This document shows, piece after piece, positions 11,986 to 28,995 of a DNA stretch of 37,559 nt. Within the stretch, counting starts at the first letter, position 1. Each line of letters begins with the position of its first letter. The DNA lies in the IMG/VR virus record IMGVR_UViG_3300027983_000042, positions 1 through 37,559 of that record. One strand, 5' to 3'. This stretch comes from a virus. Both the position numbers and the translations under genes were made by a program. Under the pieces are notes generated by a model that had not been told where the DNA came from, did no database searches, and saw only the letters and a program-made list of their open reading frames with translations.

Positions 11986-12014
11986 AATCTAGTCCACTGC
12001 GTGTTTCTCCGGAT
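11986..12014 (-). promoter_or_regulatory. Shared-box promoter of the MoxR-VWA operon
   Basis: Box ATCCGGAGAAACACGCA, 6-base gap, -10 TAGATT. The CTACTA leader element lies further downstream than usual, adding about 14 bases of leader. Confidence 0.8.
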
Positions 12015-12058
12015 TCCTATATTCCCTAGCATTCACCGCTGTTTGCTATCATTTGATT

Positions 12059-12304
12059 ATGCAAAAACCTTCCTTTAGCTATGTCACAACCAAAGATTTG
12101 GCCGTAACATCCGAGACGAAAGAAACATCTAAAAGTGTTTCATCCGCAATCGGCGTCATAGCACAAAAAATTGTTGTACCGGTTGAGAGTGTTCGGCCGG
12201 CCGCTGACGCAGAAGATGAACCAAAACGCAAACGTAATCCTTTCACTGTCAAAGAAGACGTCATTGAATCAGGCGATGACGTAGTGATATTGAAAACGCT
12301 TTAG
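12059..12304 (+). CDS. Small hypothetical protein, possibly leaderless
   Basis: 81 residues from ATG at 12059 (TTG 12053 is in frame). Ser/Thr-rich N-terminus, Ala/Val-rich middle, and a basic patch KRKRNPF near residue 60. TATCAT lies exactly 6 bases before the ATG, so a leaderless mRNA is likely, though without the shared upstream box. It ends 4 bases into the convergent gene ending at 12301. No family is recognised. Confidence 0.55.
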   Translation: MQKPSFSYVTTKDLAVTSETKETSKSVSSAIGVIAQKIVVPVESVRPAADAEDEPKRKRNPFTVKEDVIESGDDVVILKTL

Positions 12305-12777
12305 GCGTAAACAACCCTTCCCTTTTTCGTCGTCATCACTCCGCCGGCAAATACATTTTTCCAGCGGTCGCCTTCGTTGTCTCGCCAGATTATGTATGAG
12401 CCGACCTCGACGAACGGCGCAAGGGCGGCAAGAAACAAGTCTTGCTGTCCAGACTTTTCATTTGTGTAAACAATGTCTATGAGGTCACCCGTAGCCTCAT
12501 CGTATGTCGTCTCAAACCCAAGTTCTTTCATAAGGCTATCAAAGTTCAGGCAGGTCTCTGGATAGTTTGCATCCATCCATGAGAACCATTTGGCAGGATG
12601 GTGGTTCATCCCCTCTGGGCGTGGGTCACCGGGTGACACTTTATCCGCTCCGTAATGACCACCACCGCGCTTGACCGCATCGTTGTCGTTGAGACGACAC
12701 ATGACTTTATATGCCACATCAAGGTTTGCCGCCTTGATATGGAATATGGATTCCTCTGATTCAACGTAATATCCCAT
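12301..12777 (-). CDS. Hypothetical actinophage protein
   Basis: 158 residues from ATG at 12777 with TGGAGA 5 bases upstream; ATG 12789 overlaps that site and was rejected. An N-terminal beta-alpha segment (YYVESEESIFHIKAANLDV) and a conserved-looking HPAKWFSWMDANYPE followed by the C-terminal segment VEVGSYIIWRDNEGDRWKNVF suggest a globular domain seen in other actinophages, but its role is unknown. Transcribed from the shared-box promoter at 12807-12835. Confidence 0.7.
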   Translation of the reverse strand: MGYYVESEESIFHIKAANLDVAYKVMCRLNDNDAVKRGGGHYGADKVSPGDPRPEGMNHHPAKWFSWMDANYPETCLNFDSLMKELGFETTYDEATGDLIDIVYTNEKSGQQDLFLAALAPFVEVGSYIIWRDNEGDRWKNVFAGGVMTTKKGRVVYA

Positions 12778-12806
12778 TTCGTTCTCCATTTCTAGTAGTT
12801 GCCAAG

Positions 12807-12835
12807 AGTGTATAGGGGTGCGCTGTTCTCCGGAT
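12807..12835 (-). promoter_or_regulatory. Shared-box promoter
   Basis: Box ATCCGGAGAACAGCGCA, 6 bases, -10 TACACT; CTACTA follows 8 bases after the -10, then TGGAGA and the ATG at 12777. Confidence 0.85.
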
Positions 12836-13719
12836 TACCCCTTACTAGGTGTGCAAAGAGCCGGCATTGAGACAGTGCCATCGTATCCGCGATGGATGCG
12901 AATGCGATTTCCTTTGACGAAGTGGTTGAATGCGTTTATATAGTTGCCCAGGTGCACGGCTGCCTTCTGGCCGGCCACGCTGGGCGTGCGGCGAATCAAG
13001 AAATTGCGAAGTGCAAGAATTGGCGAGTCGGCATTCATTCCCTCACCCGTAGCCATTTTCGTAACAAAGTTTTCAATTAGCTCTTTGTTATGACCAGCAC
13101 CTAGTGCCATTAGTACCAATGCTGTCCACGCGGTGCGATTACCAAGCTTCTGCCCATCATAAATAGGTCGGATGATACGAACTGCCCAATCGAGTTCTTC
13201 TGCATGCTTCTTCGCATAGTTCACGATGTCTTGCTTTGTCACAAGTTCTGTCATCTCTGCGGAGTTGAATGGATTTAATCCAGCCTCAAGAACTTGAACC
13301 AAACGTGCTACTGGTGCAATATGACCTGAACTTGCATAGCCGATTTTATTCAGTGCATCTCCGATGTTGCGCTTTAGTCCACTGTCAAGAACCGTGAATG
13401 CTTCTTTCGGTAGACCGGTAACGACGAGCTGTTGTTTCATCGTTTTTCCGGATTCAACACAACCGGTCAAACGATGCTGACCATCAAGAAGTGAACCATC
13501 AACGGCGAACTTAATTGCTTCACCAGTGACCTGCCACTGCTTGCGGTTGAGTTGCTCTGCGATACCAAGCACACGAGTCTTGCGGATGTTGCGGTTGTCG
13601 TTGTTGAACTTAAGTATTTCTACGGCCATAGCCGGCGTGATGTCAATGAAGAATGCTTCGGGGTGTTTGCTGATTCGCTCAAACCCCAACGATGCAGTGG
13701 TGGGTGTGGTGGTACTCAT
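12835..13719 (-). CDS. ParB/Srx-like nuclease-fold protein
   Basis: 294 residues. The segment IRKTRVLGIAEQLNRKQWQV, then IKFAVDGSLLDGQHRLTGC and VVTGLPKEAFTVLDSG, is the hallmark of phage proteins related to the ParB/sulfiredoxin fold; the DGQHR motif sits at about residues 77-81. The remainder is helical and ends with a basic KGNRIRIHRGYDG. In phages such proteins are thought to bind nucleotide or DNA; no biochemical role can be assigned. The leader has CTATTAGAAAGCAGGA before the ATG. Its promoter region carries a GACGGTGGTGGAAAG copy where others have ATCCGGAGAA. Confidence 0.75.
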   Translation of the reverse strand: MSTTTPTTASLGFERISKHPEAFFIDITPAMAVEILKFNNDNRNIRKTRVLGIAEQLNRKQWQVTGEAIKFAVDGSLLDGQHRLTGCVESGKTMKQQLVVTGLPKEAFTVLDSGLKRNIGDALNKIGYASSGHIAPVARLVQVLEAGLNPFNSAEMTELVTKQDIVNYAKKHAEELDWAVRIIRPIYDGQKLGNRTAWTALVLMALGAGHNKELIENFVTKMATGEGMNADSPILALRNFLIRRTPSVAGQKAAVHLGNYINAFNHFVKGNRIRIHRGYDGTVSMPALCTPSKG

Positions 13720-13760
13720 AATGAGTCCTGCTTTCTAATAGTGATTAGTAATGAGTTCAA

Positions 13761-13794
13761 TGTATAGGGGTGGGTGATGCTTTCCACCACCGTC
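13761..13794 (-). promoter_or_regulatory. Atypical promoter of the ParB-like gene
   Basis: TACATT or TATACA at about 13759-13766 is preceded by CACCCACCCC, which matches the sequence before the -10 of the 12777 gene. In place of the usual box lies GACGGTGGTGGAAAG (13780-13794). It is either a diverged box or a differently regulated promoter. Confidence 0.5.
13780..13794 (-). repeat. GACGGTGGTGGAAAG repeat, copy 7
   Basis: Exact copy in the promoter of the ParB-like gene, just after the stop of the upstream gene (13809). Confidence 0.8.
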
Positions 13795-13808
13795 AAATAA
13801 AAAATGTC

Positions 13809-14394: not shown

Positions 14395-14418
14395 TTCCAT
14401 TCTCCTTTTGTTATTAGT

Positions 14419-14592: not shown

Positions 14593-14605
14593 TATAGGTA
14601 TGTTT

Positions 14606-14634
14606 AGTCTAACGACGTGCGTAGTTCTTCGGAT
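14606..14634 (-). promoter_or_regulatory. Shared-box promoter, variant
   Basis: Variant box ATCCGAAGAACTACGCA, 6 bases, -10 TAGACT; drives the gene starting at 14592. The upstream TAA stop of the preceding gene overlaps the box. Confidence 0.75.
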
Positions 14635-15105: not shown

Positions 15106-15106
15106 A

Positions 15107-15325: not shown

Positions 15326-15349
15326 TCCTCATTTCTAGTAGGTGACTAA

Positions 15350-15378
15350 ATCTTACTTGCCTGCGTTATTCTCCGGAT
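15350..15378 (-). promoter_or_regulatory. Shared-box promoter
   Basis: Box ATCCGGAGAATAACGCA, 6 bases, -10 TAAGAT, CTACTA 8 bases later. The box lies inside the last codons of the gene ending at 15366, whose TAA is within it. Confidence 0.88.
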
Positions 15379-15548
15379 TCGTACTGACATTCCATTCCGT
15401 CGCAACTGCCGAAGTTCAGGCAAAACGATTGGTAGTTAGTGCATTCCGTATCGCGTTCATCAGCTCCGCTGTCGTGCCGGTGCCGTTCCTGCCTACGGCC
15501 TCGGCGCTTACCGAGACCATAGGCAATCGACGTGGTAAAAATCCCCAC
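15366..15548 (-). CDS. Small Cys-rich protein with hydrophobic start
   Basis: 60 residues from GTG at 15548, which overlaps the previous stop (TAGTG). MGIFTTSIAYGLGKRRGRR is followed by ECTNYQSFCLNFGSCDGMEC, a four-cysteine motif seen in other small phage proteins that begin with a Gly-rich hydrophobic stretch and a basic patch. Probably a metal-binding, membrane-associated peptide. Its last codons overlap the next promoter box. Confidence 0.65.
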   Translation of the reverse strand: MGIFTTSIAYGLGKRRGRRQERHRHDSGADERDTECTNYQSFCLNFGSCDGMECQYESGE

Positions 15549-16000
15549 TAGCTATTGGCGCTCGCCATTAGTTCTAGAACGGCGTCATTCAGCGAACCGC
15601 GTGCCTTGCCATCATCCGTAATGACATTCTCAACGTCGTCGCCAAAACGCATTGCCGAGCAAACGTTGTTACGGCTGGCACAAACGACTAAGCGCACTCT
15701 GCGCTTTTCTGGATGTTCTGACGGTGGACCATCAAAGTCAATGGCGTCGGGCCCGCACGGTGCTGCCCAACCACCTGTAACCAGGGCAATGTCGCCTTGC
15801 TGTGCGACTTCGCGCGCTTCGTCGCTGTCAAGCAAGTTATAGACATCACTCCACGCTTGCTCTAGGGCAACTACCACGTCGCCCTGTTCGTTGGTTTTTA
15901 CGGAGTAAAGTTCCGCGCGCTCTGGCACGAACTCTTTCCGATTAACGAACCCGTCGTTAAGCACTGTCTCAATCTTTGTGGCTATCTCAATGTTCATCAT
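15548..16000 (-). CDS. Hypothetical actinophage protein
   Basis: 150 residues. An N-terminal helical segment (IEIATKIETVLNDGFV) is followed by a beta-rich region (AELYSVKTNEQGDVVVALE), a Gly/Pro segment GGWAAPCGPDAIDFDGPPSE, and RRVRLVVCASRNNV. It seems globular and cytoplasmic. No family is recognised with confidence. Leader CTACTAGAGAAAAGGA. Confidence 0.65.
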   Translation of the reverse strand: MMNIEIATKIETVLNDGFVNRKEFVPERAELYSVKTNEQGDVVVALEQAWSDVYNLLDSDEAREVAQQGDIALVTGGWAAPCGPDAIDFDGPPSEHPEKRRVRLVVCASRNNVCSAMRFGDDVENVITDDGKARGSLNDAVLELMASANS

Positions 16001-16030
16001 TGTCCTTTTCTCTAGTAGTGGTTTATCTGT

Positions 16031-16059
16031 ACTTTACATCACTGCGCCGTTCTCCGGAT
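16031..16059 (-). promoter_or_regulatory. Shared-box promoter
   Basis: Box ATCCGGAGAACGGCGCA, 6 bases, -10 TAAAGT; serves the gene starting at 16000. CTACTA is 12 rather than 8 bases after the -10. Confidence 0.82.
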
Positions 16060-16062
16060 TAT

Positions 16063-16946: not shown

Positions 16947-16975
16947 ATCTTAGGTCAATGCGTGTTTCTCCGGAT
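16947..16975 (-). promoter_or_regulatory. Shared-box promoter
   Basis: Box ATCCGGAGAAACACGCA, 6 bases, -10 TAAGAT, CTACTA after 8 bases, then GGGAGA and the ATG at 16919. A GGCCGGCC palindrome abuts the box. Confidence 0.88.
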
Positions 16976-17012: not shown

Positions 17013-17234
17013 TTAGGAACGAGCGTACTTGTACGACTCGTCTTCAGCATTTTCGGTGATGCCGACGTGCCACTCAAATGTTGGGCGTGTCTCGGCGTAC
17101 TCTTGCTCAAACTTTAATTTGCATGAGAGAGCTAGGCCCTTGTCCGAAAATGAATTGATGAGCGCGGGGACCCAGCCGATGTGTGTGAAATCTTCGTATC
17201 CCCGGAATTCCCACTTGATTACCTGATAGTGCAT
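17013..17234 (-). CDS. Small hypothetical protein
   Basis: 73 residues with aromatic-rich strands (YQVIKWEFRGYEDF, PTFEWHVGITE), probably a small beta-alpha fold. No family is recognised. Its leader, of about 40 bases, ends AAAGGGGC before the ATG. It shares a divergent promoter region with the plus-strand gene at 17382. Confidence 0.6.
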   Translation of the reverse strand: MHYQVIKWEFRGYEDFTHIGWVPALINSFSDKGLALSCKLKFEQEYAETRPTFEWHVGITENAEDESYKYARS

Positions 17235-17282: not shown

Positions 17283-17311
17283 AACCTACTACCCTGCGTT
17301 GTTCTCCGGAT
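17283..17311 (-). promoter_or_regulatory. Shared-box promoter (divergent, minus side)
   Basis: Box ATCCGGAGAACAACGCA, 6 bases, -10 TAGGTT. It faces the plus-strand box 10 bases away. Confidence 0.85.
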
Positions 17312-17321: not shown

Positions 17322-17350
17322 ATCCGGAGAATGACGCACTCCACTAAGGT
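17322..17350 (+). promoter_or_regulatory. Shared-box promoter (divergent, plus side)
   Basis: Box ATCCGGAGAATGACGCA, 6 bases, -10 TAAGGT, CTACTA after 8 bases, then CGGAGA and ATG at 17382. With its partner it forms the inverted repeat TTCTCCGGATT...AATCCGGAGAA. Confidence 0.88.
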
Positions 17351-17381: not shown

Positions 17382-17660
17382 ATGTTCTCATACCAAACGG
17401 AAATGCGAAAGACATCAGACGGTCAGCGTGGTCGCGACGGTGGCGAGAAAAAATACATCGTTCGCGTACAGCAAAATGCGCGCGGCACTTACACTCTGAT
17501 TGTGTTTTACGGCAAAGCTAGTTACGGTTGCTCGCTCGTGAACAAAGAGATTGGGGATTACTCCAATAAGTATCTGGCCCTTTACGCGGCACGCGACATT
17601 GAGGACAAAAAGTTCGCTAAGGGCTACTACGTCAAATCAACAACACGAGAGGGAGACTAA
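17382..17660 (+). CDS. Small hypothetical protein
   Basis: 92 residues, basic (KKYIVRVQQNARGTYTLIVF suggests a beta hairpin). The tail has Tyr/Lys-rich repeats (NKYLALYAARDIEDKKFAKG). It might bind nucleic acid, judging from charge only. The next gene starts 2 bases after the stop, with its ribosome site (GGGAG) inside this gene's end. Confidence 0.6.
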   Translation: MFSYQTEMRKTSDGQRGRDGGEKKYIVRVQQNARGTYTLIVFYGKASYGCSLVNKEIGDYSNKYLALYAARDIEDKKFAKGYYVKSTTREGD

Positions 17661-17661: not shown

Positions 17662-17832
17662 ATGACACGCTGGAATGTCACGTTCGCCGGCAATATCTTT
17701 TCGCTTGTCACGTCGGCAGAGGCGAACAATGAAGAAGAAGCCATTAAGTTTGCGTCGACCGCGCTGATGGATTACTACGGTTGGGATGTTGCGGAAGTGT
17801 CACACGACATTGACGCCGAGGAACAAGAGTAA
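17662..17832 (+). CDS. Small hypothetical protein
   Basis: 56 residues from ATG at 17662 with GGGAGA 6 bases upstream; a longer in-frame reading from 17551 lies inside the previous gene and has no ribosome site. MTRWNVTFAGNIFSLVTSAE followed by an acidic helix suggests a beta-alpha fold. Its TAA is the first part of the next promoter box. Confidence 0.6.
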   Translation: MTRWNVTFAGNIFSLVTSAEANNEEEAIKFASTALMDYYGWDVAEVSHDIDAEEQE

Positions 17833-17860
17833 TCCGGAGAACAACGCAGGCCCGTAAGAT
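17832..17860 (+). promoter_or_regulatory. Shared-box promoter
   Basis: Box ATCCGGAGAACAACGCA, 6 bases, -10 TAAGAT, CTACTA after 8 bases; a near-consensus copy. Confidence 0.9.
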
Positions 17861-17888
17861 AAAAGTATCTACTAAAAGGAGAATGCAA

Positions 17889-18173
17889 ATGACCAACCAG
17901 CCGCACGAAGTTACATTCCAACTACAAGGAGTCGTAGGAATGTCCAGCTCGCAACTTGACCGAGCCGTTTTTGTTTCCGGGCATACCGATAAATATGGGA
18001 AGTGGAACGAAGCCCGTTTTATTCTCTCGCTCGCCGGTAACGGGGAATACGTTATGACGGGCGATGTCGCCGAAGAATCTTTTGCGGAATTGGCACTCAC
18101 CATCTCGCGACGTGACAGTATCAGCAAGTGGTTTGATGCCACTCGTGATTTGGTCGGAGTGGTGGGAATCTAA
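17889..18173 (+). CDS. Hypothetical protein
   Basis: 94 residues from ATG at 17889 (AAGGAG 8 bases upstream); the earlier ATG at 17883 is too close to that site. The N-terminal half reads as beta strands (HEVTFQLQGVV, RAVFVSGHTDKYGKW, ARFILSLAG). No family is recognised. Sole gene on its transcript before another promoter. Confidence 0.62.
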   Translation: MTNQPHEVTFQLQGVVGMSSSQLDRAVFVSGHTDKYGKWNEARFILSLAGNGEYVMTGDVAEESFAELALTISRRDSISKWFDATRDLVGVVGI

Positions 18174-18201
18174 TCCGGAGAACAGCGCAGGCAAGTAGGG
18201 T
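18173..18201 (+). promoter_or_regulatory. Shared-box promoter
   Basis: Box ATCCGGAGAACAGCGCA, 6 bases, -10 TAGGGT, CTACTA after 8 bases. The upstream gene's TAA overlaps the box start. Confidence 0.87.
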
Positions 18202-18780: not shown

Positions 18781-18809
18781 GTCCGGAGAGTCACGCAAGC
18801 CGATAAACT
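18781..18809 (+). promoter_or_regulatory. Shared-box promoter
   Basis: Box GTCCGGAGAGTCACGCA, 6 bases, -10 TAAACT; leader CTGCTAAAAGGAG. A GGCCGGCC palindrome lies 2 bases upstream of the box. Confidence 0.83.
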
Positions 18810-18836: not shown

Positions 18837-19124
18837 ATGACCAAACAATCGCACGATGAATTACTGGAAGCCCTAGAGGCGAGTCTTACCAGTAGTATCC
18901 ATTACTACAACGCAGTACTTGAGGAAGTTCAGGCAAAAAAATACACGATAAAAGAAGCCCGCGCCGATTTACAGAGCCTGCTATTTAATGAGGGAACGGA
19001 TATCATCGCTATTCTCCAAGAGATGAGCGATGGAGATGGACAATTCAGCGCGAACCTGTTAAAGATGGACCTGCTAGATGTAGACCTGCTAGATGTAGAC
19101 CTACCCGTTGAGGAGACTAAATGA
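18837..19124 (+). CDS. Helical acidic protein with duplicated end
   Basis: 95 residues; helical (HDELLEALEASLTSSIHYYN). Near the C-terminus an exact 15-bp duplication (19068-19097) gives LLDVD-LLDVD, followed by a third diverged unit. Its stop overlaps the next ATG. Function unknown. Confidence 0.6.
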   Translation: MTKQSHDELLEALEASLTSSIHYYNAVLEEVQAKKYTIKEARADLQSLLFNEGTDIIAILQEMSDGDGQFSANLLKMDLLDVDLLDVDLPVEETK

Positions 19125-19621
19125 CATTACTAGCACCAATCACCGGCACAATGGTGGATGAAGTTCATTCCAAATTGTGGGCCGAGGCGATAGATACTCA
19201 CGGCGACAGATACAAAGTTCCAGGCGACATCGCGCAGAACATCTCGGACATCACTCGTGGGATGTACGTCCTACAAAGTTGGGATGGCCGAGGCTCAGCT
19301 ATCACCCGGCTCAATGGTTATTCCGTAGATGAGGCAGTAATGATTCATCTCGTGAACACTTATTGCGATGATGACATTGACGAGGATGAGCCGTTAGTAG
19401 TTACATACGAGAGTCGCGAAAAGAAGTACGAAAAAATGGCGACGTATGCTCACGCCAATGTCTTTGAGCAATTCACCACAGAGCATCTCGTTGAGGTCGG
19501 TGGGTTCTCATATCAAACGACACTCAAGTACCTACAAGAATCGCTTGACTATCGCAAGGTCAAGAAAGGTTTATGGGAGTGCCGTGATAACAAGGCCGAG
19601 CGAGATGCCGCCAAGAACTAA
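19121..19621 (+). CDS. Hypothetical protein with winged-helix-like C-terminus
   Basis: 166 residues. Residues about 110-155 (FEQFTTEHLVEVGGFSYQTT, LKYLQESLDYRKVKKGLWEC) fit a helix-turn-helix and wing, as in DNA-binding regulators. The N-terminal part (GDRYKVPGDIAQNISDITRG) is unassigned. It is co-translated with the upstream gene (ATGA overlap). A sequence-specific DNA-binding role is plausible but unproven. Confidence 0.6.
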   Translation: MTLLAPITGTMVDEVHSKLWAEAIDTHGDRYKVPGDIAQNISDITRGMYVLQSWDGRGSAITRLNGYSVDEAVMIHLVNTYCDDDIDEDEPLVVTYESREKKYEKMATYAHANVFEQFTTEHLVEVGGFSYQTTLKYLQESLDYRKVKKGLWECRDNKAERDAAKN

Positions 19622-19677
19622 CCAGGCAGGTTGATTTATGGGCCGGCCGATAGTATCGTGACGGTATAACTTACACA

Positions 19678-19899
19678 ATGGCCCCGCTTGAGAAGTACTT
19701 ACTTGCTAATGTCGAGACTCAGATACCGGTCACCATCACCCTGGACGGCGGCACGTGGTCAATGATATTAGAAACGATTGAGGTGTCTGTCGCCCGGCTT
19801 ATTGCCGACAGCTTGCCGGGGATGGCCGAGGAACTAGGAGATGTGAGGGACATCATAATGATGAGTATCCCGATTCCGGAGAATAACGCGCCCGTCTAA
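19678..19899 (+). CDS. Small hypothetical protein, possibly leaderless
   Basis: 73 residues. TATAAC lies 7 bases before the ATG with no ribosome site, suggesting a leaderless transcript independent of the shared box. Central segment is helical (ILETIEVSVARLIADSLPGM). The last codons carry the next promoter's box, and the stop TAA is part of that promoter's -10 (TAAGAT). Confidence 0.55.
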   Translation: MAPLEKYLLANVETQIPVTITLDGGTWSMILETIEVSVARLIADSLPGMAEELGDVRDIIMMSIPIPENNAPV

Positions 19900-19902
19900 G
19901 AT
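19874..19902 (+). promoter_or_regulatory. Shared-box promoter inside a gene end
   Basis: Box TTCCGGAGAATAACGCG, 6 bases, -10 TAAGAT, CTACTA after 8 bases. It is almost entirely within the coding end of the gene stopping at 19899. Confidence 0.85.
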
Positions 19903-19929
19903 AGAAGTACCTACTAAAAGGAGATGAAA

Positions 19930-20331
19930 ATGACCATTAAGCCACAGCAGATAAAAGATATGCGAATAGATATGCTTGAGGCACTCAAGCCTGTTGCCGA
20001 AAAGTACGGGCTTGCCCTTGACAAGACAAATGCCAAGTACTCAGAAACAACCGTAACATTTTCTCTCGGATTTACTGAAGTGGAATTAGATGCCAACGGA
20101 GTAAATCTCTTGAGCGAGTGGGCAATTGCTTACAATTCATTTCACAAAAGTTATGACCTACCCGCAGGCATTTTGAGCAAGACATTTACCAACGGTGGGA
20201 AAACATTTGTGTTCGCAGGGGTCGCCATAAGCCGTAGCAAATACCCATTTGTTGGTTTAAACAAAAAGACCAAAGAAGTGATTTTCTTTACAGACGGACC
20301 GACCATTAGGAAGCAATTAGTGGGCATCTGA
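19930..20331 (+). CDS. Conserved-type phage hypothetical protein
   Basis: 133 residues from ATG at 19930 (AAGGAG 8 bases upstream; ATG 19924 overlaps that site). The C-terminal region (LSKTFTNGGKTFVFAGVAIS followed by KYPFVGLNKKT) is the G-KTF-x-IVGL-x-KYPV-like module seen in small phage proteins of unknown role. The stop overlaps the next ATG (TGATG). Confidence 0.65.
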   Translation: MTIKPQQIKDMRIDMLEALKPVAEKYGLALDKTNAKYSETTVTFSLGFTEVELDANGVNLLSEWAIAYNSFHKSYDLPAGILSKTFTNGGKTFVFAGVAISRSKYPFVGLNKKTKEVIFFTDGPTIRKQLVGI

Positions 20332-20884: not shown

Positions 20885-20887
20885 GAT
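20859..20887 (+). promoter_or_regulatory. Shared-box promoter, weak variant
   Basis: Box GTCCGGTGAATGACGCA, 6 bases, -10 TAAGAT; leader CCACCAAAGGAG instead of CTACTA. Confidence 0.78.
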
Positions 20888-20914: not shown

Positions 20915-21205
20915 ATGGCGCTAGTAGAACTATCGTACGACGAGCTAGAGGTGATTCTAATCGCGCTTGTGTTGAGGCAAGAGGAGATTTACACTATTCC
21001 CAGGTCCGAACGCACCGACGCGACGCGATACGAGATTCACAATTCCGGAGAACTATCGGACAAGCTGAACAACGCTCAGCACGCCATTGAGCAAGAGGGG
21101 ATTGACCAGATTGAGCGCGATTTAGGCAAGCGAGCGTCGATTCAGAAAGGTAAGCCACGAGCCAATTGGCTTGTCCGGCATCTCGTAAAAAAGACGCCAC
21201 GTTAA
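20915..21205 (+). CDS. Helical hypothetical protein
   Basis: 96 residues. Acidic-helical N-terminus (VELSYDELEVILIALVLRQE) and basic C-terminus (RASIQKGKPRANWLVRHLVK). AAAGGAG lies 8 bases before the ATG. Its stop overlaps the next start (TAATG). No family is recognised. Confidence 0.6.
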   Translation: MALVELSYDELEVILIALVLRQEEIYTIPRSERTDATRYEIHNSGELSDKLNNAQHAIEQEGIDQIERDLGKRASIQKGKPRANWLVRHLVKKTPR

Positions 21206-21399: not shown

Positions 21400-21574
21400 G
21401 TGCCGCATATGCGGCCTGGCGATTGACCCGGCGTCAAGTAGCTCTGTCCGGAAAGTTACCGGTTGGGTACGGGGGGCATCAAAGAATATCTACAAAATCA
21501 CCGATGAGTACTACGAGTACATCCACGATTTCTGCGTGGAACACAACCCGGCGGCGCAAGAGAGTATGTTTTAG
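21383..21574 (+). CDS. Cys-containing ORF with no ATG/GTG/TTG start
   Basis: The frame reads CTG TCT CCG TCT TTT AAG TGC CGC ATA TGC, giving [M]SPSFKCRICGLAIDP and ending KITDEYYEYIHDFC then VEHNPAAQESMF. The protein at 28720 begins TTG TCG CCT GCA TTT AAG TGC, that is MSPAFKCVDC, so CTG as initiator is plausible. A +1 slip at TTT TAA in the preceding gene would give the same downstream frame. The sequence is clearly protein-like and ends at the convergent gene with a 4-base overlap. Confidence 0.6.
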   Translation: MSPSFKCRICGLAIDPASSSSVRKVTGWVRGASKNIYKITDEYYEYIHDFCVEHNPAAQESMF

Positions 21575-21945
21575 TCGTCGTCTCTCGGCACGCTAACAAC
21601 CGTGAAGCCTCTGCCCGTCGGCACGTCGTGGTGCGAGAGAATACAGTCAAGCCCGTTTTTTGTGACATTGTAGCGAAGTATCCACTCGCCATTAACAGTA
21701 ATCGCCGCCAAGAGTTTAGACGGGAATTGTGCATCAATGAAGCCATCGACGTTGCCATTCCACAATGGGAAGCCCTCAATTCTCCACGTCCCGGAAAACT
21801 CGGCATTGTCAAAGAGTGGCGCTACATCTTCGGCAAACAAGTTGAGAGTGTCCTCCCAGCAATCGCCGTAACAGTCGGTAGCCTCGCCGGTTTCGTCTTC
21901 GCACCCGCACGAGTTGGTAATCGTTTGGTAATTTAGTGTTTTCAT
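21571..21945 (-). CDS. Hypothetical protein with N-terminal Cys cluster
   Basis: 124 residues. SCGCEDETGEATDCYGDCWE gives five cysteines in 20 residues, a probable metal site. A beta-rich body follows (FSGTWRIEGFPLWNGNVDGF, AITVNGEWILRYNVTKNG). No family is recognised. Leader CTACTAAAACGGGGGA. Confidence 0.65.
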   Translation of the reverse strand: MKTLNYQTITNSCGCEDETGEATDCYGDCWEDTLNLFAEDVAPLFDNAEFSGTWRIEGFPLWNGNVDGFIDAQFPSKLLAAITVNGEWILRYNVTKNGLDCILSHHDVPTGRGFTVVSVPRDDD

Positions 21946-21972: not shown

Positions 21973-22001
21973 AGTTTATCGCTCTGCGTCATTCTCCGGA
22001 T
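21973..22001 (-). promoter_or_regulatory. Shared-box promoter
   Basis: Box ATCCGGAGAATGACGCA, 6 bases, -10 TAAACT, CTACTA after 8 bases. A strong hairpin (22006-22053) lies directly upstream. Confidence 0.88.
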
Positions 22002-22129: not shown

Positions 22130-22387
22130 TTATTCGTACAGCCCGTCGCTGTAATCGTAATCGTCATCGCCAAAGCTGAACATTTCATCCCAGCAAGCAC
22201 CGTGTGTGCCCGTCATTATTTGCTCGCGCTCAGCTTTGGGCAAAGTTGGGTAGCACTCTTGGATTAAGCCACCTTGCGCGCGAAGTGTTGCGCCAAACTC
22301 GGCCTCTTGTGCGCCAAGCACCAGTTCGCCGGTTTCGCCACAATGAAAGCACCGCTTCGTGGTGATGATTACTTGGGTATCGCTCAT
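22130..22387 (-). CDS. Zinc-knuckle-like phage protein
   Basis: 85 residues. CFHCGETGEL near the N-terminus is a zinc-knuckle-like motif. LIQECYPTLPKAEREQIMTG and THGACWDEMF resemble a small family common in actinophages, where the C/H residues probably complete the metal site. Acidic tail. Function unknown. Confidence 0.72.
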   Translation of the reverse strand: MSDTQVIITTKRCFHCGETGELVLGAQEAEFGATLRAQGGLIQECYPTLPKAEREQIMTGTHGACWDEMFSFGDDDYDYSDGLYE

Positions 22388-22416: not shown

Positions 22417-22445
22417 AGTTTACAACGGTGCGTTATTCTCCGGAT
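22417..22445 (-). promoter_or_regulatory. Shared-box promoter
   Basis: Box ATCCGGAGAATAACGCA, 6 bases, -10 TAAACT, CTACTAGAAACGGAGA leader. The box overlaps the 3' end of the gene stopping at 22433. Confidence 0.88.
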
Positions 22446-22843
22446 TCCGTCCGTGATACCCGTGTGCGATTATCGCAATACCCCGATTTTCGCCCTGCAA
22501 AGATTAGTCTCGGTATTGCATAAGAAATTCCAAAAACAATAATAAGCCGCAACCAAGGGTTGATAATGTGTTGATATATATATTCCCCGTTTGCGTCCCA
22601 CTCATCGCATGTCAGAGGAATTTCGCGGGTTTCATAACACTCTTCAACCATCACTACACCCCGGCTAGGGTCGTAATCGGGATTATTAACCAAACGACCA
22701 GGTATAAAAATCATTGGAAATAGGGATATCCAAGTGGTTATAAGCGCCATATAAAAACAACGGAGTTCGCTATTACAACTCTCAACATATGAAGACAACC
22801 ACTTTTTGATTTTTGTGGTGATTTCTTTATAATATTCGCTCAT
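22433..22843 (-). CDS. Two-helix membrane protein
   Basis: 136 residues. Hydrophobic segments at about 30-50 (FYMALITTWISLFPMIFIPG) and 97-116 (LRLIIVFGISYAIPRLIFAG) flank a roughly 50-residue loop with two cysteines. Charge distribution (Lys-rich N-terminus, Arg-rich C-terminus) predicts both ends inside and the loop outside. It may act at the envelope in superinfection immunity, but no family is recognised. Confidence 0.65.
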   Translation of the reverse strand: MSEYYKEITTKIKKWLSSYVESCNSELRCFYMALITTWISLFPMIFIPGRLVNNPDYDPSRGVVMVEECYETREIPLTCDEWDANGEYIYQHIINPWLRLIIVFGISYAIPRLIFAGRKSGYCDNRTRVSRTESGE

Positions 22844-22870: not shown

Positions 22871-22899
22871 AGTTTAGTTGAGTGCGTGTTTCTCCGGAA
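22871..22899 (-). promoter_or_regulatory. Shared-box promoter
   Basis: Box TTCCGGAGAAACACGCA, 6 bases, -10 TAAACT, CTACTAGAAATGGGG leader to ATG 22843. Confidence 0.87.
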
Positions 22900-23987: not shown

Positions 23988-24016
23988 ATCTTAGACGAGT
24001 GCGTGGTTCTCCGGAT
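23988..24016 (-). promoter_or_regulatory. Shared-box promoter
   Basis: Box ATCCGGAGAACCACGCA, 6 bases, -10 TAAGAT, CTACTA after 8 bases, AAGGAG, ATG 23959. The stop of the gene ending at 24016 overlaps the box. Confidence 0.88.
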
Positions 24017-24411
24017 TATGCGACTTCATCATCGTCATCGTCGTCATCGGCGTAATCATCGTTATCGCTCTCGCGCATAAAGATGATTTCCAGGCTTGCG
24101 ACGCGACCGCTCTCAATGTCAATGTTTTGATAAACATCATAGACACCATCGCCCCAACCCGTTGATGAAACGACACCTTGACAACGGCCAAGTTGTCCAC
24201 CTTTTGCTTCGCTTATTGTCGCACCGCACGAGCCGACATATGAATATGGGTAGTTGTCATCATCATCGGGTTTCGCAAAATCGTAATCCATGCCGTCTGG
24301 TTGTGGTGCGAAATCAGAAACGTAACACGGGTCACTAATCATTATTTGCCCCGAATCAACTCCGCATCTGCCGATAAACACTCGCCTGGTTGAGATAGTT
24401 GTAGTAGTCAT
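24016..24411 (-). CDS. DUF4241-like protein (leaderless)
   Basis: 131 residues. CGVDSGQIMISDPCYVSDF near the start and a later STGWGDGVYDVYQN followed by GRVASLEIIF match the DUF4241 pattern (GVDSGQ-x-x-x-DP, then GDG-Y-V and a G-R-V strand). The C-terminus is a long Asp run. It begins MTTTT, and its ATG is exactly 6 bases from the -10, so it should be translated from a leaderless mRNA. Confidence 0.72.
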   Translation of the reverse strand: MTTTTISTRRVFIGRCGVDSGQIMISDPCYVSDFAPQPDGMDYDFAKPDDDDNYPYSYVGSCGATISEAKGGQLGRCQGVVSSTGWGDGVYDVYQNIDIESGRVASLEIIFMRESDNDDYADDDDDDDEVA

Positions 24412-24417: not shown

Positions 24418-24446
24418 ATCCTATCGGGGTGCGTGGTTCTCCGGAA
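24418..24446 (-). promoter_or_regulatory. Shared-box promoter, leaderless output (divergent)
   Basis: Box TTCCGGAGAACCACGCA, 6 bases, -10 TAGGAT, then 6 bases to ATG 24411. Faces the plus-strand box across 18 bases. Confidence 0.88.
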
Positions 24447-24464: not shown

Positions 24465-24493
24465 ATCCGGAGAAAGACGCAGGCGACTAAGGT
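24465..24493 (+). promoter_or_regulatory. Shared-box promoter, leaderless GTG output (divergent)
   Basis: Box ATCCGGAGAAAGACGCA, 6 bases, -10 TAAGGT, 6 bases, GTG 24500. Confidence 0.88.
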
Positions 24494-24499: not shown

Positions 24500-24763
24500 G
24501 TGGCAACAACTACTACACAGAAAGCAGGACCAATGACCACACCAACACTCACCGTCTCACTCGCAGGAGAATCAACTTCTGTCAATGAGATTTCGTTCCG
24601 CAATAACTTGCTGTTCGTGACATTCTCGTCAAATGTTACTTACTGCTACGAAGGCGTCACGTTTGACACCGTTCGCAACATTGTCGGTAGCGAGTCAGTC
24701 GGCTCGGCACTTCACAAGCAAATAATCAGCCAGCCGTATCCATTTACGAGGTTGTCAAAGTAA
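24500..24763 (+). CDS. KTSC-domain protein
   Basis: 87 residues from GTG at 24500, exactly 6 bases after the -10, so probably leaderless (MATTTTQKAG start). An internal ATG at 24533 has weak AGCAGGA upstream. Residues about 28-85 (SVNEISFRNNLLFVTFSSNV, YCYEGVTFDTVRNIV, SALHKQIISQPYPF) fit the KTSC domain: S-x-I-x-x-I-x-Y, strand, Y-x-GV, then a hydrophobic helix and YP-x-x-R. KTSC is a small domain sometimes fused to lysyl-tRNA-synthetase-like or RNA-binding proteins; alone its role is unknown. Confidence 0.72.
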   Translation: MATTTTQKAGPMTTPTLTVSLAGESTSVNEISFRNNLLFVTFSSNVTYCYEGVTFDTVRNIVGSESVGSALHKQIISQPYPFTRLSK

Positions 24764-24789: not shown

Positions 24790-24818
24790 ATCCGGAGAGT
24801 GGCGCAGACCACTAAAAT
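24790..24818 (+). promoter_or_regulatory. Shared-box promoter feeding a hairpin leader
   Basis: Box ATCCGGAGAGTGGCGCA, 6 bases, -10 TAAAAT. Transcription should start near 24825, the first base-paired positions of the hairpin. Confidence 0.85.
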
Positions 24819-24823
24819 GATTT

Positions 24824-24872
24824 CATCGGGAGAGTGAAGGGCTTGGTCTCCCTCTGGTTCACTCTCCCGATG
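24824..24872 (+). promoter_or_regulatory. Perfect 15-bp hairpin at the mRNA 5' end
   Basis: CATCGGGAGAGTGAA pairs perfectly with TTCACTCTCCCGATG across a 19-base loop. It lies between the -10 at 24813-24818 and the gene at 24899, so the transcript would begin on the stem. It may stabilise the mRNA, gate translation or bind a protein. Confidence 0.8.
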
Positions 24873-24898
24873 TCCAACTATTAGAAACGAGATACGCG

Positions 24899-25351
24899 AT
24901 GGGCCTGGATAACTATCCACTTAAATACCCGTGTAAAACAAATAAGACCGCCGTCTTAGTTGATGGCAAAATCGATTGCGTCGCCACCATTGACCAAAAT
25001 GGATGTCCGTACACAACGGCACTTGACGAAAGCAATCCAGAATGGGATGATGATGATATTATTCCGGGTTCTACAGGTATCCCGTGTTGGTATCGCGGCA
25101 AGGTCGGCAACTACTTGCTAGAAACATTGGGCGCAAAAACTAACGACCTTAACTTCTATGGTGATAATCGTGATGGCTCACGCAAGAGTGCTAGTAGTTG
25201 TCACAATGTAGCCGACGTGATGGAAAAACGTTTATCAGATTTGGGCGGCACTTTACTTGACGGCGATGGCGACGCGACGGGCGCGGTAAAATACGCAATA
25301 TGGTGGTTGCGTTGGGTTGCCGGTAATGGTGGCTCGGCAACTTGGCACTAA
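24899..25351 (+). CDS. Hypothetical protein with hairpin leader
   Basis: 150 residues starting MGLDNYPLKYPC. Several cysteines (C12, about C27, C36, C63, C101) and an Asp-rich PEWDDDDIIPG segment. Ends GDATGAVKYAIWWLRWVAGN. The family resembles other phage proteins beginning MGLD, without a known role. The ATG is preceded by CTATTAGAAACGAGA, a degenerate form of the CTACTA leader. Confidence 0.65.
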   Translation: MGLDNYPLKYPCKTNKTAVLVDGKIDCVATIDQNGCPYTTALDESNPEWDDDDIIPGSTGIPCWYRGKVGNYLLETLGAKTNDLNFYGDNRDGSRKSASSCHNVADVMEKRLSDLGGTLLDGDGDATGAVKYAIWWLRWVAGNGGSATWH

Positions 25352-25569
25352 ACAGTTGGCAATTTATTAGCCAACGTGCCGGCAGTACTGCCAAGAGATT
25401 TAGGGTCATCCATCCACGCGGTCGATAATTTTGAGCCCGTTGTCTGTGTGTAGATAATATCTGAAATCTGTTTCTCTAGGCTGGCTACCTTTGCCTGGAG
25501 TGTCTTGACTTGCTGTAAGAGCGCGTCATTGATGCCGGAGCCATAATCGTCGTAGTCATCATTTGTCAT
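25348..25569 (-). CDS. Coiled-coil protein
   Basis: 73 residues from ATG at 25569 (GTG 25575 is also in frame). DALLQQVKTLQAKVASLEKQ is a textbook heptad coiled coil; the N-terminus is Asp/Tyr-rich. TATCAT lies 7 bases before ATG 25569, so a leaderless transcript is likely. Convergent 4-base overlap with the gene ending at 25351. Possibly an oligomeric partner of a larger protein; no evidence which. Confidence 0.62.
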   Translation of the reverse strand: MTNDDYDDYGSGINDALLQQVKTLQAKVASLEKQISDIIYTQTTGSKLSTAWMDDPKSLGSTAGTLANKLPTV

Positions 25570-25592
25570 AGCCACGATGATAGCATTATCGT

Positions 25593-27443
25593 ATGAGCTC
25601 TAACCTTTGGCTCCACGATGACGAGCTAGTAATGATATTCCCGTACAATGGTGACCAGGTGACCGAAATAAAGACCATCCCGGGTGCAAGGTGGGATAAG
25701 GTCGCAAAAGCGTGGCGGGCCCCAGTGACATCGCTAGAAAAAGTCCGACTATTTGCTCAAAAGCACGCATTTGACATTGAGGCCGATGTTCTCCGGCTGA
25801 CGTTGCCGCGTCACCGCAACGCTGGCGCGGGACTGTCGCTGGATGATGAGTTTGTGTACATTTCGTTCGCATATGACCCGGTAAAAGTACGCAGCGTAAA
25901 ACAGATTCCCGGCGTTACCTGGGACCCGAAATCAAAGGCCTGGCGCGCGCCGGTGTCGTCGATGGCGCATTCAATGCGTTGGGCCGAAGCATTTGCCGAA
26001 AATGTCCCGGATGACGTTCAGGAAGAAGCAAAAAACGTGGAAAATCGATTGACCCGGTTGCGAGAAGCATCGCACTCGACTGACGAGGCCCTAAATCTGG
26101 ATGGTTTTGCGGGACTGTTCCCGTATCAGCGCGCTGGAGCGGCGTATGCAGCCAAAGCCCGGCGTGTTTTTATAGCTGATGAGATGGGGCTGGGCAAAAC
26201 GCCTGAAGCAATAGCTACGTTGGAGCTCATTTCCCAAGAAAGTAGCTGTTTTCCGGCCGTAATCGTATGTCCCCCCAACCTGGTTCTGAACTGGGAGCGC
26301 GAATACTCGATTTGGGCCCCGGCGCGGCGCATAAAAGTGGTGAAAAACCGAAAAGACTTCCCGGAAGACGGGGATTTTGACGTGGTCATCGTTGGATACT
26401 CAAATATCACGGCCTGGGAGAAGAGATTGACGAAAATGAAGGCATACGTGTTCGACGAGTCGCACTATTTAAAGAACTTTAAGGCGCAGCGCACCAAATC
26501 GGCCCTTAAAATGACCCGGAGTTCGCCTGGAGTCCCGATATTGTGCTTGACCGGGACACCAATCACGTCTCGACCAGAAGAATACGCCGCTCAACTAGAG
26601 CTAATGGGCCAATTAAACAAGTTTGGAGGCCGCTGGGGGTTCTACCGGCGGTATTGCGCTGCGTTCCAAGACAGGTTTGGTCAGTGGCACCTGGAGGGAC
26701 ACGCACATCTTGATGAATTAAACGATTTATTGCGCTCGACGTGTTATATCCGTCGAACAAAGGCCCAGGTTTTAACAGATTTACCGCCGGTACTGCACTC
26801 GGTTATCACATTTGAGGGCTCGGCAGCCGGGTTAAAGGAGTACCGGAAGGCCGAGGGAGACGTTTCGGCCTTCTTGCGTGCTAATAGCGGCCTTGATGTC
26901 CCGTCCCAGCTGGCCCGGATTAGCGTATTGCGACGTTTAGCGGCCCATGCGAAGATGCCGGCGGTCATCGAGTGGGTTGAGGAGCGCATAAATGCCGGGA
27001 AAAAGGTCGTTATAGCCGCGCATCACCGGGACATTGTCGATGAATTGGCAAATAAGTTCGGTGGCCTGAAGATTCAGGGCTCGATGACAGTTGAACAGGT
27101 CGAGGAAAACAAGAAAAAGTTTCAGAATTTACCAATGGAAGAGGCGCCGGTCATTGTTCTGTCGATTCAGGCCGCTAAAACCGGGCATACCTTGACGGCG
27201 GCGCAGGATATTCTGTTTGTAGAGCTTCCCTGGACTCCAGCTGACGTCCAACAGACCTATTCGCGCTTACATCGCATCGGACAAGAGGGTTCTGTTACCG
27301 CAACCTACGCATTATTGGGCAATTCGATAGATGAGGACATCTTTGGACTACTACAACGCAAGTTAGCGGTTGTAACAGAGGCCACGGAGGGTGTTGCCGG
27401 TGGCGCAGTTGTTAAATCGTTCCTAGACCGCTTAAAAATGTAA
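25593..27443 (+). CDS. SNF2-family helicase with two HARP-like repeats
   Basis: 616 residues. Two similar segments (about 9-60 and 84-135), each with an IPG-x-x-WD...AWRAPV core, resemble the HARP domain of SMARCAL1-type annealing helicases. Then come Walker A DEMGLGKT (196-203), motif II DESH (288-291), TGTP (320-323), and motif VI QTYSRLHRIGQ near 553. SNF2 ATPases translocate on double-stranded DNA; the HARP pair suggests binding branched DNA, for example at replication forks or recombination intermediates. Start chosen at ATG 25593; TAGCAT lies 6 bases upstream, so the message may be leaderless. Confidence 0.92.
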   Translation: MSSNLWLHDDELVMIFPYNGDQVTEIKTIPGARWDKVAKAWRAPVTSLEKVRLFAQKHAFDIEADVLRLTLPRHRNAGAGLSLDDEFVYISFAYDPVKVRSVKQIPGVTWDPKSKAWRAPVSSMAHSMRWAEAFAENVPDDVQEEAKNVENRLTRLREASHSTDEALNLDGFAGLFPYQRAGAAYAAKARRVFIADEMGLGKTPEAIATLELISQESSCFPAVIVCPPNLVLNWEREYSIWAPARRIKVVKNRKDFPEDGDFDVVIVGYSNITAWEKRLTKMKAYVFDESHYLKNFKAQRTKSALKMTRSSPGVPILCLTGTPITSRPEEYAAQLELMGQLNKFGGRWGFYRRYCAAFQDRFGQWHLEGHAHLDELNDLLRSTCYIRRTKAQVLTDLPPVLHSVITFEGSAAGLKEYRKAEGDVSAFLRANSGLDVPSQLARISVLRRLAAHAKMPAVIEWVEERINAGKKVVIAAHHRDIVDELANKFGGLKIQGSMTVEQVEENKKKFQNLPMEEAPVIVLSIQAAKTGHTLTAAQDILFVELPWTPADVQQTYSRLHRIGQEGSVTATYALLGNSIDEDIFGLLQRKLAVVTEATEGVAGGAVVKSFLDRLKM

Positions 27444-27587
27444 GTGGAAGGTGCAATGGGCGATGGACACATCATCGTAACCCTTGTCTCTCCACTCTTG
27501 GGCTAGTTCTTCCGCTTTCTCTTGAGTGAGCATGACATCATTGACTTCGCCACCGCCCACGAATACGGAATACGATTCGTCACTCAT
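27432..27587 (-). CDS. 51-residue hypothetical protein
   Basis: MSDESYSVFVGGGEVNDVML, then an acidic helix ending in HCTFHLHF, a His/Cys-rich end that may bind metal. The start overlaps the previous stop (TAATG). Its 3' end overlaps the SNF2 gene's end by 12 bases in convergent orientation. Confidence 0.6.
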   Translation of the reverse strand: MSDESYSVFVGGGEVNDVMLTQEKAEELAQEWRDKGYDDVSIAHCTFHLHF

Positions 27588-27742
27588 TATGCTTCACAGT
27601 CGTGACCGTAGAAATAGTCATCAGGATTTGTGAACACTTGCTCGCACTCTGGGCAGGTGAACGATATGGTTCTCGCCAACATTTTGGCCTCAGTAGGGAA
27701 TATCTTGGCTAGTTGGGCGATGTAGTTTTTAGTAGTGGTCAT
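27587..27742 (-). CDS. 51-residue zinc-finger protein (leaderless)
   Basis: MTTTKNYIAQLAKIFP, then SFTCPECEQVFTNPDDYFYG followed by HDC: a C-x2-C ... H-x-C zinc finger similar to C2H2/C2HC modules. The ATG lies exactly 6 bases from the -10 TAAGAT. Probably nucleic-acid-binding. Confidence 0.68.
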   Translation of the reverse strand: MTTTKNYIAQLAKIFPTEAKMLARTISFTCPECEQVFTNPDDYFYGHDCEA

Positions 27743-27748
27743 GTCATC

Positions 27749-27777
27749 ATCTTAGTTGGGTGCGTGATTCTCCGGAT
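27749..27777 (-). promoter_or_regulatory. Shared-box promoter, leaderless output
   Basis: Box ATCCGGAGAATCACGCA, 6 bases, -10 TAAGAT, 6 bases, ATG 27742. The previous gene's TAA overlaps the box. Confidence 0.9.
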
Positions 27778-28187
27778 TAAAGAATACTGACAAGACCTTC
27801 TTGTGAGTAGTACGTCGCATCGGCTAAGAGAACTTCCGCTTGCCCAACGGCATCATTGACGGAGAAATGTACACAGTCAAGATGTTCGTTGCTTTCAGCA
27901 TCGTACAAATCAAACCAAGCATTGTTTACCCACTCAAAAGCACCGCTTTCGTTTAGAGCGAACACTTGCTTGTCGGTAGTGATGTCATGGCGAAACAAAT
28001 CGCCGGAAGTTCGCAAACGGTTGTCGTTGTATAGAACCTTCATTATGCCATCAGCGTAAATATGGATAGCATTTGTGCCGTTGTAAACAGTTGCTACCCA
28101 AGTATGACTATCGCCGTCTACATACCAACACGGGTCTTGTCTGTCCGGGTCGGGCAGGTTCTCTGTGTTGCCGTAATCAACCTTCAT
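27777..28187 (-). CDS. Hypothetical protein
   Basis: 136 residues, acidic, beta-rich and with many aromatics (PCWYVDGDSHTWVATVYNGT, KQVFALNESGAFEWVNNAWF). Likely a single globular domain. The ATG overlaps the stop of the preceding gene (TGATG). No family is recognised. Confidence 0.62.
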   Translation of the reverse strand: MKVDYGNTENLPDPDRQDPCWYVDGDSHTWVATVYNGTNAIHIYADGIMKVLYNDNRLRTSGDLFRHDITTDKQVFALNESGAFEWVNNAWFDLYDAESNEHLDCVHFSVNDAVGQAEVLLADATYYSQEGLVSIL

Positions 28188-28414
28188 CAGAGTGCGAAAC
28201 TTTCGCCCTTGTGTAACCCGAACATCACTCCGCCCCCGTTGCCTTCGTAGTCGGCAGAAGGGTAAAGAATAATACCGTTCTCCAACACAATGGCGAGGAC
28301 ATTTTCGTTGCCGTAATCGTTCCAGCCTTCTGCTTCTTTTTCGGCATGGGTAAGATTACGAATCGCTTTGATTCTCTGGCCTTCTATTGCGACTTGCTTA
28401 GTAGTTGTGGTCAT
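28187..28414 (-). CDS. Conserved phage hypothetical protein (leaderless)
   Basis: 75 residues. MTTTTKQVAIEGQRIKAIRN, then VLAIVLENGIILYPSADYEG and NGGGVMFG follow the pattern of a widespread small phage family: VL-x-L-ENG-x-x-LY-S-D-EGNG-G-x-x-FG. Its function is unknown. The ATG is exactly 6 bases from the -10 TAGGAT. Confidence 0.72.
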   Translation of the reverse strand: MTTTTKQVAIEGQRIKAIRNLTHAEKEAEGWNDYGNENVLAIVLENGIILYPSADYEGNGGGVMFGLHKGESFAL

Positions 28415-28420
28415 ATCCCT

Positions 28421-28449
28421 ATCCTAGTGGGGTGCGTGTTTCTCCGGAT
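28421..28449 (-). promoter_or_regulatory. Shared-box promoter, leaderless output (divergent)
   Basis: Box ATCCGGAGAAACACGCA, 6 bases, -10 TAGGAT, 6 bases, ATG 28414. Faces the plus-strand box across 12 bases. Confidence 0.9.
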
Positions 28450-28461
28450 TCGTGAAAGCTA

Positions 28462-28490
28462 ATCCGGAGAGTAACGCAGACTAGTAGGAT
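28462..28490 (+). promoter_or_regulatory. Shared-box promoter, leaderless output (divergent)
   Basis: Box ATCCGGAGAGTAACGCA, 6 bases, -10 TAGGAT, 6 bases, ATG 28497. Confidence 0.9.
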
Positions 28491-28496
28491 GAGAGC

Positions 28497-28718
28497 ATGA
28501 CAACTACCGAAACACCAGAGCAAACAGCACACCTGGATAGCATCATTTATTCAGGGACCGACGCCTTTATCTTGGGCTGCATTGATTACGTTGAGCGCAT
28601 CACGTACCGAACAGCATTAAAGGCGAACGAAATAATGGAATCAAATAGCGACGACCCGAATTACGATTTCGCATCGGCGCTCGCAGCCATTGACTCAATG
28701 AAATTGGAATCCATTTAA
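28497..28718 (+). CDS. Small hypothetical protein (leaderless)
   Basis: 73 residues beginning MTTTETPEQT. Mainly helical with an acidic C-terminal half. Start codon 6 bases from the -10 and no ribosome site, so leaderless initiation is expected. The downstream gene begins with TTG one base after the stop. Confidence 0.6.
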   Translation: MTTTETPEQTAHLDSIIYSGTDAFILGCIDYVERITYRTALKANEIMESNSDDPNYDFASALAAIDSMKLESI

Positions 28719-28719
28719 C

Positions 28720-28995
28720 TTGTCGCCTGCATTTAAGTGCGTTGACTGTCGCGTTGATACAAACAAGATACGCGAGTACTACATGGTTCATGACCATCTT
28801 TGGGCAGAAGCCGGTATGAAACCGCGCCGTATCTCAGGGATGCTATGTGTCGGTTGCCTAGAAATCCGCTTAGGGAGAGAGCTTAATTCCAACGACTTTA
28901 TAGATGCCCCCATTAATAGGGGGGCAGTGGGTCAGTCGGAACGAATGCTTTCTCGCATCCGGAGAACAGCGCATCCCGATAAGATGGGAACATGA
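28720..28995 (+). CDS. Zinc-binding phage protein with TTG start
   Basis: 91 residues from TTG. FKCVDCRVDTNKIREYYMVH followed by MLCVGCLEIRLGRELN and DFIDAPIN resemble a small actinophage family with two CxxC pairs (ML-C-x-x-C-LE-RLGR-L). Its N-terminus (MSPAFKC) parallels the ORF at 21383. The promoter box for the next gene lies within its 3' end. Confidence 0.7.
   Translation: MSPAFKCVDCRVDTNKIREYYMVHDHLWAEAGMKPRRISGMLCVGCLEIRLGRELNSNDFIDAPINRGAVGQSERMLSRIRRTAHPDKMGT
28957..28985 (+). promoter_or_regulatory. Shared-box promoter, leaderless output
   Basis: Box ATCCGGAGAACAGCGCA, 6 bases, -10 TAAGAT, 6 bases, ATG 28992; lies entirely inside the coding end of the upstream gene. Confidence 0.9.

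Follow-up and report, generated by a model that had tools for sequence, protein, structure and literature searches.

The virus record IMGVR_UViG_3300027983_000042 (37,559 bases, analyzed over its whole length and called the window here; the record gives no host) carries 24 elements of 29 bp each between 11,986 and 28,985, on both strands, composed of a 17-bp box (ATCCGGAGAAnnnCGCA), 6 bp, and a TAnnnT hexamer. With a probability of roughly 60%, these are sigma-A-type promoters in which a phage-specific box serves in place of a -35 element and is read by a phage-encoded activating factor. That the promoters are active, that their reader is encoded by the phage and activates, and that the WhiB-like protein called WhiB2 below may be the reader or part of it, we infer from sequence comparison. 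Judging from related contigs, the array of box-type promoters is a trait of the whole phage lineage.

The box is matched exactly by 16 sites and with one mismatch by five more. Requiring a match at 12 or more of the 14 fixed bases yields exactly 24 boxes across the window, and TAnnnT stands exactly 6 bp downstream of every one (24/24), as the original prediction had claimed for both strands. Shuffled sequence with the same density of matches had been named there as grounds for giving the array up; 60 dinucleotide shuffles averaged 0.5 boxes each (maximum 2), and in no case did TAnnnT follow at 6 bp. When the search is anchored independently on TAnnnT, the motif emerges again (log-likelihood 117; the highest shuffle value was 13). 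Read backwards, the pattern has no match. Outside 11.9-29.0 kb the window has no box, nor does the stretch of about 7 kb past its end that is covered by an overlapping contig of this phage (L100). Elsewhere in the IMG/VR collection, the full pattern is confined to a contig of the phage that overlaps the window; a looser pattern gives nearly all single scattered matches in viral contigs, which were taken as chance. If transcription starts about 7 nt past the -10, the box spans approximately -35 to -19. The -10 is of sigma-A type (TAnnnT), and lies at the correct distance from a leader or start codon at 24 of 24 sites. The -35 position had also been described as unlike TTGACA, which holds: at spacings of 16-18 bp the mean best match in the window is only 2.0/6.

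Related contigs (up to 172 kb) were gathered by way of their helicase and MoxR-like AAA protein, and scanned, without use of the window's box, for words at a constant distance from TAnnnT. A motif search in related phages had been suggested in the original prediction; carried out in this way, it found arrays in the corresponding region, with boxes of about a dozen kinds. Around a dozen groups of related contigs have arrays, of roughly 4-35 promoters each, in a syntenic small-gene region; these counts may be slightly low, because the position weight matrix threshold used for them recovers only 22 of the 24 window sites. Most arrays are far above shuffles (L139 and L164, with few seed sites, are weaker). 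In G006 and G003, each represented by most or all of a large contig, all sites fall within one stretch of 27-28 kb syntenic with 11-29 kb of the window. The offset from the sigma-A-like -10 is fixed, while the box sequence varies from group to group: the consensus is TGTCTCAnnnGCGTCCCA in the nearest relative, G022 (140.6 kb), TTTGTAAATCTGATATC in G006, TTTGGAAATTTGGTATC in G003 and G007, TTgGTATCTGtCCTGtG in G001/G002, TTgGTTTCTGAtATtGC in G009/G008, CTaGACATcTGTTGTAtaGG in G010, GCTAACAcCGtncCtAAggTG in G016, and AACCnTGTnACACCCC in G013/G018/G019/G011, to which that of L171 (AACCtTGACACACCC) is close. It is GGAAGTcTGnCC in L145/L155, GTTGnnnTAAnncATTATTGCCTG in L168, TTGACAnTGTCACACC in L174, CGCGCCaAnaGATt in L139, and, in L164 and L178, ACTTGACA, a canonical -35 (TTGACA). 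Resemblance to TTGACA is low in several lineages besides the window (G013 and L139, 2.6/6; G016, 2.8; L138, 3.0), and ranges from 2.4 to 6 across the other lineages. Arthrobacter phage Tank was the single cultured phage examined for an array, and the stretch tested has none; a megablast search of cultured phages gave no matches, and a helicase search of genome contigs no usable relative.

An indication of a dedicated reader comes from G006 and G003, whose proteins have a median identity of 92%. Twenty-five orthologous promoter pairs can be matched between them on the sequence that follows the -10 (mean identity 90%). In essentially all pairs the same three box positions differ; the remaining positions are about 90-100% identical. 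Chance does not make sites spread over 28 kb change in the same way, and the simplest cause is a trans-acting reader with altered specificity. Given the number of different boxes and how close the phages are, this reader is probably phage-encoded. The earlier suggestion that one factor may switch the whole region is thus supported, as far as it concerns a dedicated factor, by the concerted change and by the dozen or so boxes found at one position.

Under the activator reading, a phage-encoded DNA-binding factor would read the 17-bp box lying in place of the -35 element and, once bound, bring host RNA polymerase, by way of sigma-A region 4, to the ordinary -10; the small-gene region would thereby be switched on together, and factor and box would change jointly between phages. 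Such activation would be of the sigma adaptation or sigma appropriation kind. An activator replacing the -35 is favored because the window and several other lineages have essentially no -35 left. Sigma region 2 was looked for in the window, which is an incomplete genome, and in seven relatives, and was found in none of them, so that the factor probably works with the host sigma.

Nearly every small-gene transcription unit between 11.2 and 29.3 kb begins with a site, which points toward the next gene on the same strand. Genes without one closely follow another gene, except the SNF2 helicase gene (25593-27443) and a small gene at 25348-25575, neither of which has a site of its own. Coverage of nearly all small genes, with no sites outside, had been predicted, and is borne out over a somewhat wider region. 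The promoter elements listed here are putative, and were called from the box and -10 match. The leftmost, on the minus strand at 11986-12014 (TAGATT), heads a MoxR-AAA/VWA pair (11942 down to 9733), and the controlled region therefore extends further left than originally stated. Also on the minus strand are those at 12807-12835 (TACACT; gene 12301-12789), 14606-14634 (TAGACT; gene group 14592 down to 12835), 15350-15378 (TAAGAT; genes 15325 down to 14635), 16031-16059 (TAAAGT; gene 15548-16000), 16947-16975 (TAAGAT; genes 16919 down to 16063), and 17283-17311 (TAGGTT; gene 17013-17234). Divergent from the last, a plus-strand series begins at 17322-17350 (TAAGGT; gene 17382-17660) and continues with 17832-17860 (TAAGAT; gene 17883-18173), 18173-18201 (TAGGGT; genes from about 18232), 18781-18809 (TAAACT; genes 18837-19899), 19874-19902 (TAAGAT; genes 19924-20884), and 20859-20887 (TAAGAT; gene 20915-21205). 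The minus strand resumes with three TAAACT sites, at 21973-22001 (gene 21571-21945), 22417-22445 (gene 22130-22387), and 22871-22899 (gene 22433-22843), followed by 23988-24016 (TAAGAT; genes 23959 down to 22904).

At six sites the start codon (ATG or GTG) lies 6 nt past the -10, and leaderless mRNAs are therefore predicted: on the minus strand, those at 24418-24446 (TAGGAT; gene 24016-24411), 27749-27777 (TAAGAT; gene 27587-27742), and 28421-28449 (TAGGAT; gene 28187-28414); on the plus strand, those at 24465-24493 (TAAGGT; gene 24500-24763, with GTG start, divergent from 24418), 28462-28490 (TAGGAT; gene 28497-28718, divergent from 28421), and 28957-28985 (TAAGAT; gene 28992-29258). The remaining plus-strand site, at 24790-24818 (TAAAAT), precedes gene 24899-25351; its predicted RNA has a strong stem-loop at the start (24825-24871, -27.1 kcal/mol, z -2.98). 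At most other sites an A(C/T)CTACTA-like leader begins about 6 nt past the -10 and leads on to a ribosome site, with the ATG a few tens of nt from the -10. The CTACTA-like element stands at the predicted 5′ end of many messages, in the window and at relatives' array promoters, and is box-independent, being common to phages with different boxes.

A protein that sets the specificity of the box must differ wherever the box differs, and candidate readers were compared on this basis. WhiB-like proteins are known to bind sigma-A region 4 and assist it at promoters with a weak -35 (PMC10245118), and genes for such proteins, a feature shared with WhiB7-dependent systems, are present here: two in the window, by WhiB Pfam match, and one to three in most relatives. 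The second of them (WhiB2; 121 amino acids, 31341-31706, plus strand) lies outside the array and adjoins the primase gene. Among 21 window proteins with relatives in G022, G006, G003, G001, G011, and G019, it is the most diverged between the window and G022 (35% identity, where the genes adjacent to it have 62% and 69%, and neighbors overall 62-73%). Between G006 and G003 it has a handful of residue differences, of which several fall between the clustered cysteines and one lies in the C-terminal region. WhiB2 is thus the lead candidate for box reader or co-reader, a lead and not a finding. Of the earlier proposal of a WhiB-modified polymerase, the part that stands is that two such proteins are encoded and that one, a candidate only, diverges in step with the box.

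The first WhiB-like protein (124 amino acids, 4312-4686, plus strand) is conserved across phages with different boxes (84% identity to G022), which sets it aside as specificity reader; it is a possible co-factor. Four other proteins have DNA-reading parts that are unchanged or nearly so across phages with different boxes, and were rejected: an HA-domain protein with a sigma-r4-like helix-turn-helix (HTH), an XRE protein of 72 amino acids, a 236-residue HTH protein adjoining the primase, and a winged-helix protein at 19121-19621, whose structure prediction is poor (predicted local distance difference test, pLDDT, 53). A MerR-like protein of 210 amino acids has an identical reading part in G006 and G003 despite their different boxes, and is the sixth conserved DNA-binding protein to fail this comparison. 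Neither the window nor G022 has the 129-residue winged-helix protein (MarR-like fold match) seen in relatives. A second, weaker lead is a giant multidomain protein, whose C-terminal part lies at 35368-37542 in the window (minus strand) and which in L100 occupies 209-9577 (plus strand; 3122 amino acids). In relatives it includes ArdC-N, polyvalent-type metallopeptidase, sigma-r4-like HTH, WYL, and exonuclease or acetyltransferase domains, and it is strongly diverged between G006 and G003 (63%). Since the analysis covered the window and contig L100 only, the reader may also be encoded elsewhere in the phage genome. A bolder version of this scheme would make the WhiB-like protein a fast-diversifying promoter-specificity factor, reading a private box together with host sigma-A region 4, with protein and dozens of boxes having co-diversified into about a dozen distinct codes within one lineage and each accessory regulon isolated as a result; this we regard as speculative and rather improbable.

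Several observations weigh against an activator replacing the -35, or against WhiB2 as its reader. The L174/L180 boxes have both a near-consensus TTGACA (5.2/6) and a conserved spacer motif, a combination that a repressor explains equally well, and two groups (L164 and L178) have a plain TTGACA. WhiB7 contacts AT-rich DNA upstream of the -35 (PMC10245118), whereas the window's box lies on and downstream of the -35. The divergence of WhiB2 is suggestive only, because its identity is about 23-43% in all unrelated pairs of related phages; other accessory proteins have diverged about as much.

The main rival is a repressor. The box would then be an operator lying over the -35 and spacer, with a phage repressor silencing the small-gene region (in a delayed phase, or in an immunity-like manner) and repressor-operator pairs diversifying as the stoperators of Cluster A mycobacteriophages do. 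An asymmetric, multi-copy box that differs between relatives would suit this, as would the L174 lineage just mentioned and the TTGnnA kept inside the box in G006 and G003 (about 4/6). It is harder to reconcile with the window and several other lineages, where no -35-like hexamer is left under the box, so that the promoter should be weak without help; all sites are, moreover, promoter-bound at a single spacing, and the window shows no integrase, although none was specifically searched for. Among the options originally offered, an activator or modified polymerase is therefore favored by the missing -35, and a repressor, kept alive by the TTGACA and spacer motif of L174, is less so; we consider it unlikely, though the best of the alternatives.

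A host-encoded regulator or alternative host sigma could also read the box, with phages differing as their hosts do. The -10 is of the host sigma-A type, and hosts may differ between contigs. However, a single phage lineage with about a dozen unrelated boxes would require equally many host regulators, and a three-position change at 25 promoters, at 92% median protein identity, fits a fast-evolving phage factor better, which makes this explanation distinctly improbable. Phage-specific promoter sequences that diverge together with their polymerase occur in T7-like phages, and would support the idea that a phage RNA polymerase, or else a complete sigma factor of the phage, uses the array. The sigma-A-type -10 argues against both, as does the negative search for sigma region 2 against a sigma factor; a single-subunit polymerase was likewise looked for and not found, but the control search was blind, so that this counts for little. 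Altogether this explanation is very improbable. Least probable is that the sites are some other intergenic repeat, near starts by chance and not promoters: actinophage intergenic repeats whose function is not known do exist (Cluster O, Cluster EG; PMC4351075, PMC7302621), but the sites here are strictly coupled, in the same orientation, to TAnnnT and to a leader or leaderless start.

Other repeated sequences occur in and around the arrays. GGCCGGCC is found 10 times in the window (at 9495, 12195, 12969, 13936, 14869, 16474, 16979, 18771, 19641, and 32491), far above expectation, with two copies just upstream of boxes; it is nearly absent from the relatives checked. GACGGTGGTGG recurs near gene ends and starts, on the minus strand of the window at 6262, 7332, 7708, 8043, 13787, and 16070, and also in relatives; several copies in G006, G003, and G001 lie 41-45 bp upstream of a -10. 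Inverted repeats (AGCCCCG / CGGGGCT) are found upstream of many array promoters in these same three groups, and are absent from the window; they are probably terminators of the preceding gene. Loci L149-L158, related by the MoxR gene, have a different element (AGTTATCTACTCT), with 35-38 copies in most loci and its reverse complement nearby. Between the tRNAs and the VWA gene (5.8-9.7 kb), the window has few convincing genes, and its open reading frames mostly look spurious, apart from those with relatives.

The WhiB-like genes and the nearest cultured relatives of the helicase and primase, which are mostly from Arthrobacter and Gordonia phages, assign the lineage to the actinophages, presumably of freshwater. 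The roles of WhiB-like proteins in phages are largely enigmatic (PMC8612146). If the activator reading is correct, the lineage would offer a route to what they do, and a natural series of about a dozen matched boxes and presumed readers, with the same -10 and a host-type polymerase, in large actinophages. One could then ask how promoter specificity shifts at dozens of sites simultaneously, and whether the promoter code keeps co-infecting phages apart. The boxes also provide a computational means of delimiting the accessory regulons of uncultured phages.

Boxes replacing a -35 are already known, as are repeated intergenic motifs in actinophages (Clusters K, EC, and O; PMC3203893, PMC7302621, PMC4351075). 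In the open-licence literature we found no account of a lineage whose phages each rewrite the -35 box while keeping its frame fixed. The closest parallels with actinobacterial RNA polymerase are the SARP (AfsR) and PafBC activators, where likewise a box covers the -35 and spacer, with an ordinary -10 and a poor -35; the afs box of SARP activators lies at -40 to -19, and PafBC has a -26 element (PMC10936776), positions that agree with that of the window's box. In the present case a single box type has 24 copies in one phage and changes from relative to relative, and the window's box has no 11-bp direct repeat. No SARP/OmpR-type DNA-binding domain (Trans_reg_C) was found in the window or seven relatives; WYL was not found in the window, and in four relatives only inside the giant multidomain open reading frame.

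The middle promoters of T4 also have a phage box (the MotA box, used with AsiA) replacing the -35 upstream of a retained -10 (PMC6755090), although this likeness is one of position only. The MotA box is centered at -30 (PMC6755090), compared with about -27 here, and bases -32 to -37 are not conserved in T4 but are in the window's box; the box here, unlike that of T4, diversifies between relatives.

Stoperators of Cluster A phages lie mostly away from promoters, whereas here 24 of 24 copies stand at one distance from a -10. They resemble the window's boxes in being asymmetric, multi-copy sites involved in transcription regulation (PMC4351075, PMC3203893). The start-associated sequences (SAS) and extended SAS (ESAS) of Cluster K mycobacteriophages are multi-copy and confined to the starts of non-structural genes, and the ESAS consensus varies by subcluster (PMC3203893). 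SAS, however, is 13 bp long and lies at the ribosome site, ESAS consists of paired 17-bp inverted repeats, and no strict link to a -10 is described for them; the window's box is single, asymmetric, and upstream of a fixed -10. Microbacterium phages of Cluster EC have an asymmetric 18-bp motif in 12 copies, 22-30 bp upstream of starts (PMC7302621); its sequence is unrelated to the window's box, the cluster encodes a sigma factor, and neither the box/-10 geometry nor the diversification seen in the present lineage is described for it.

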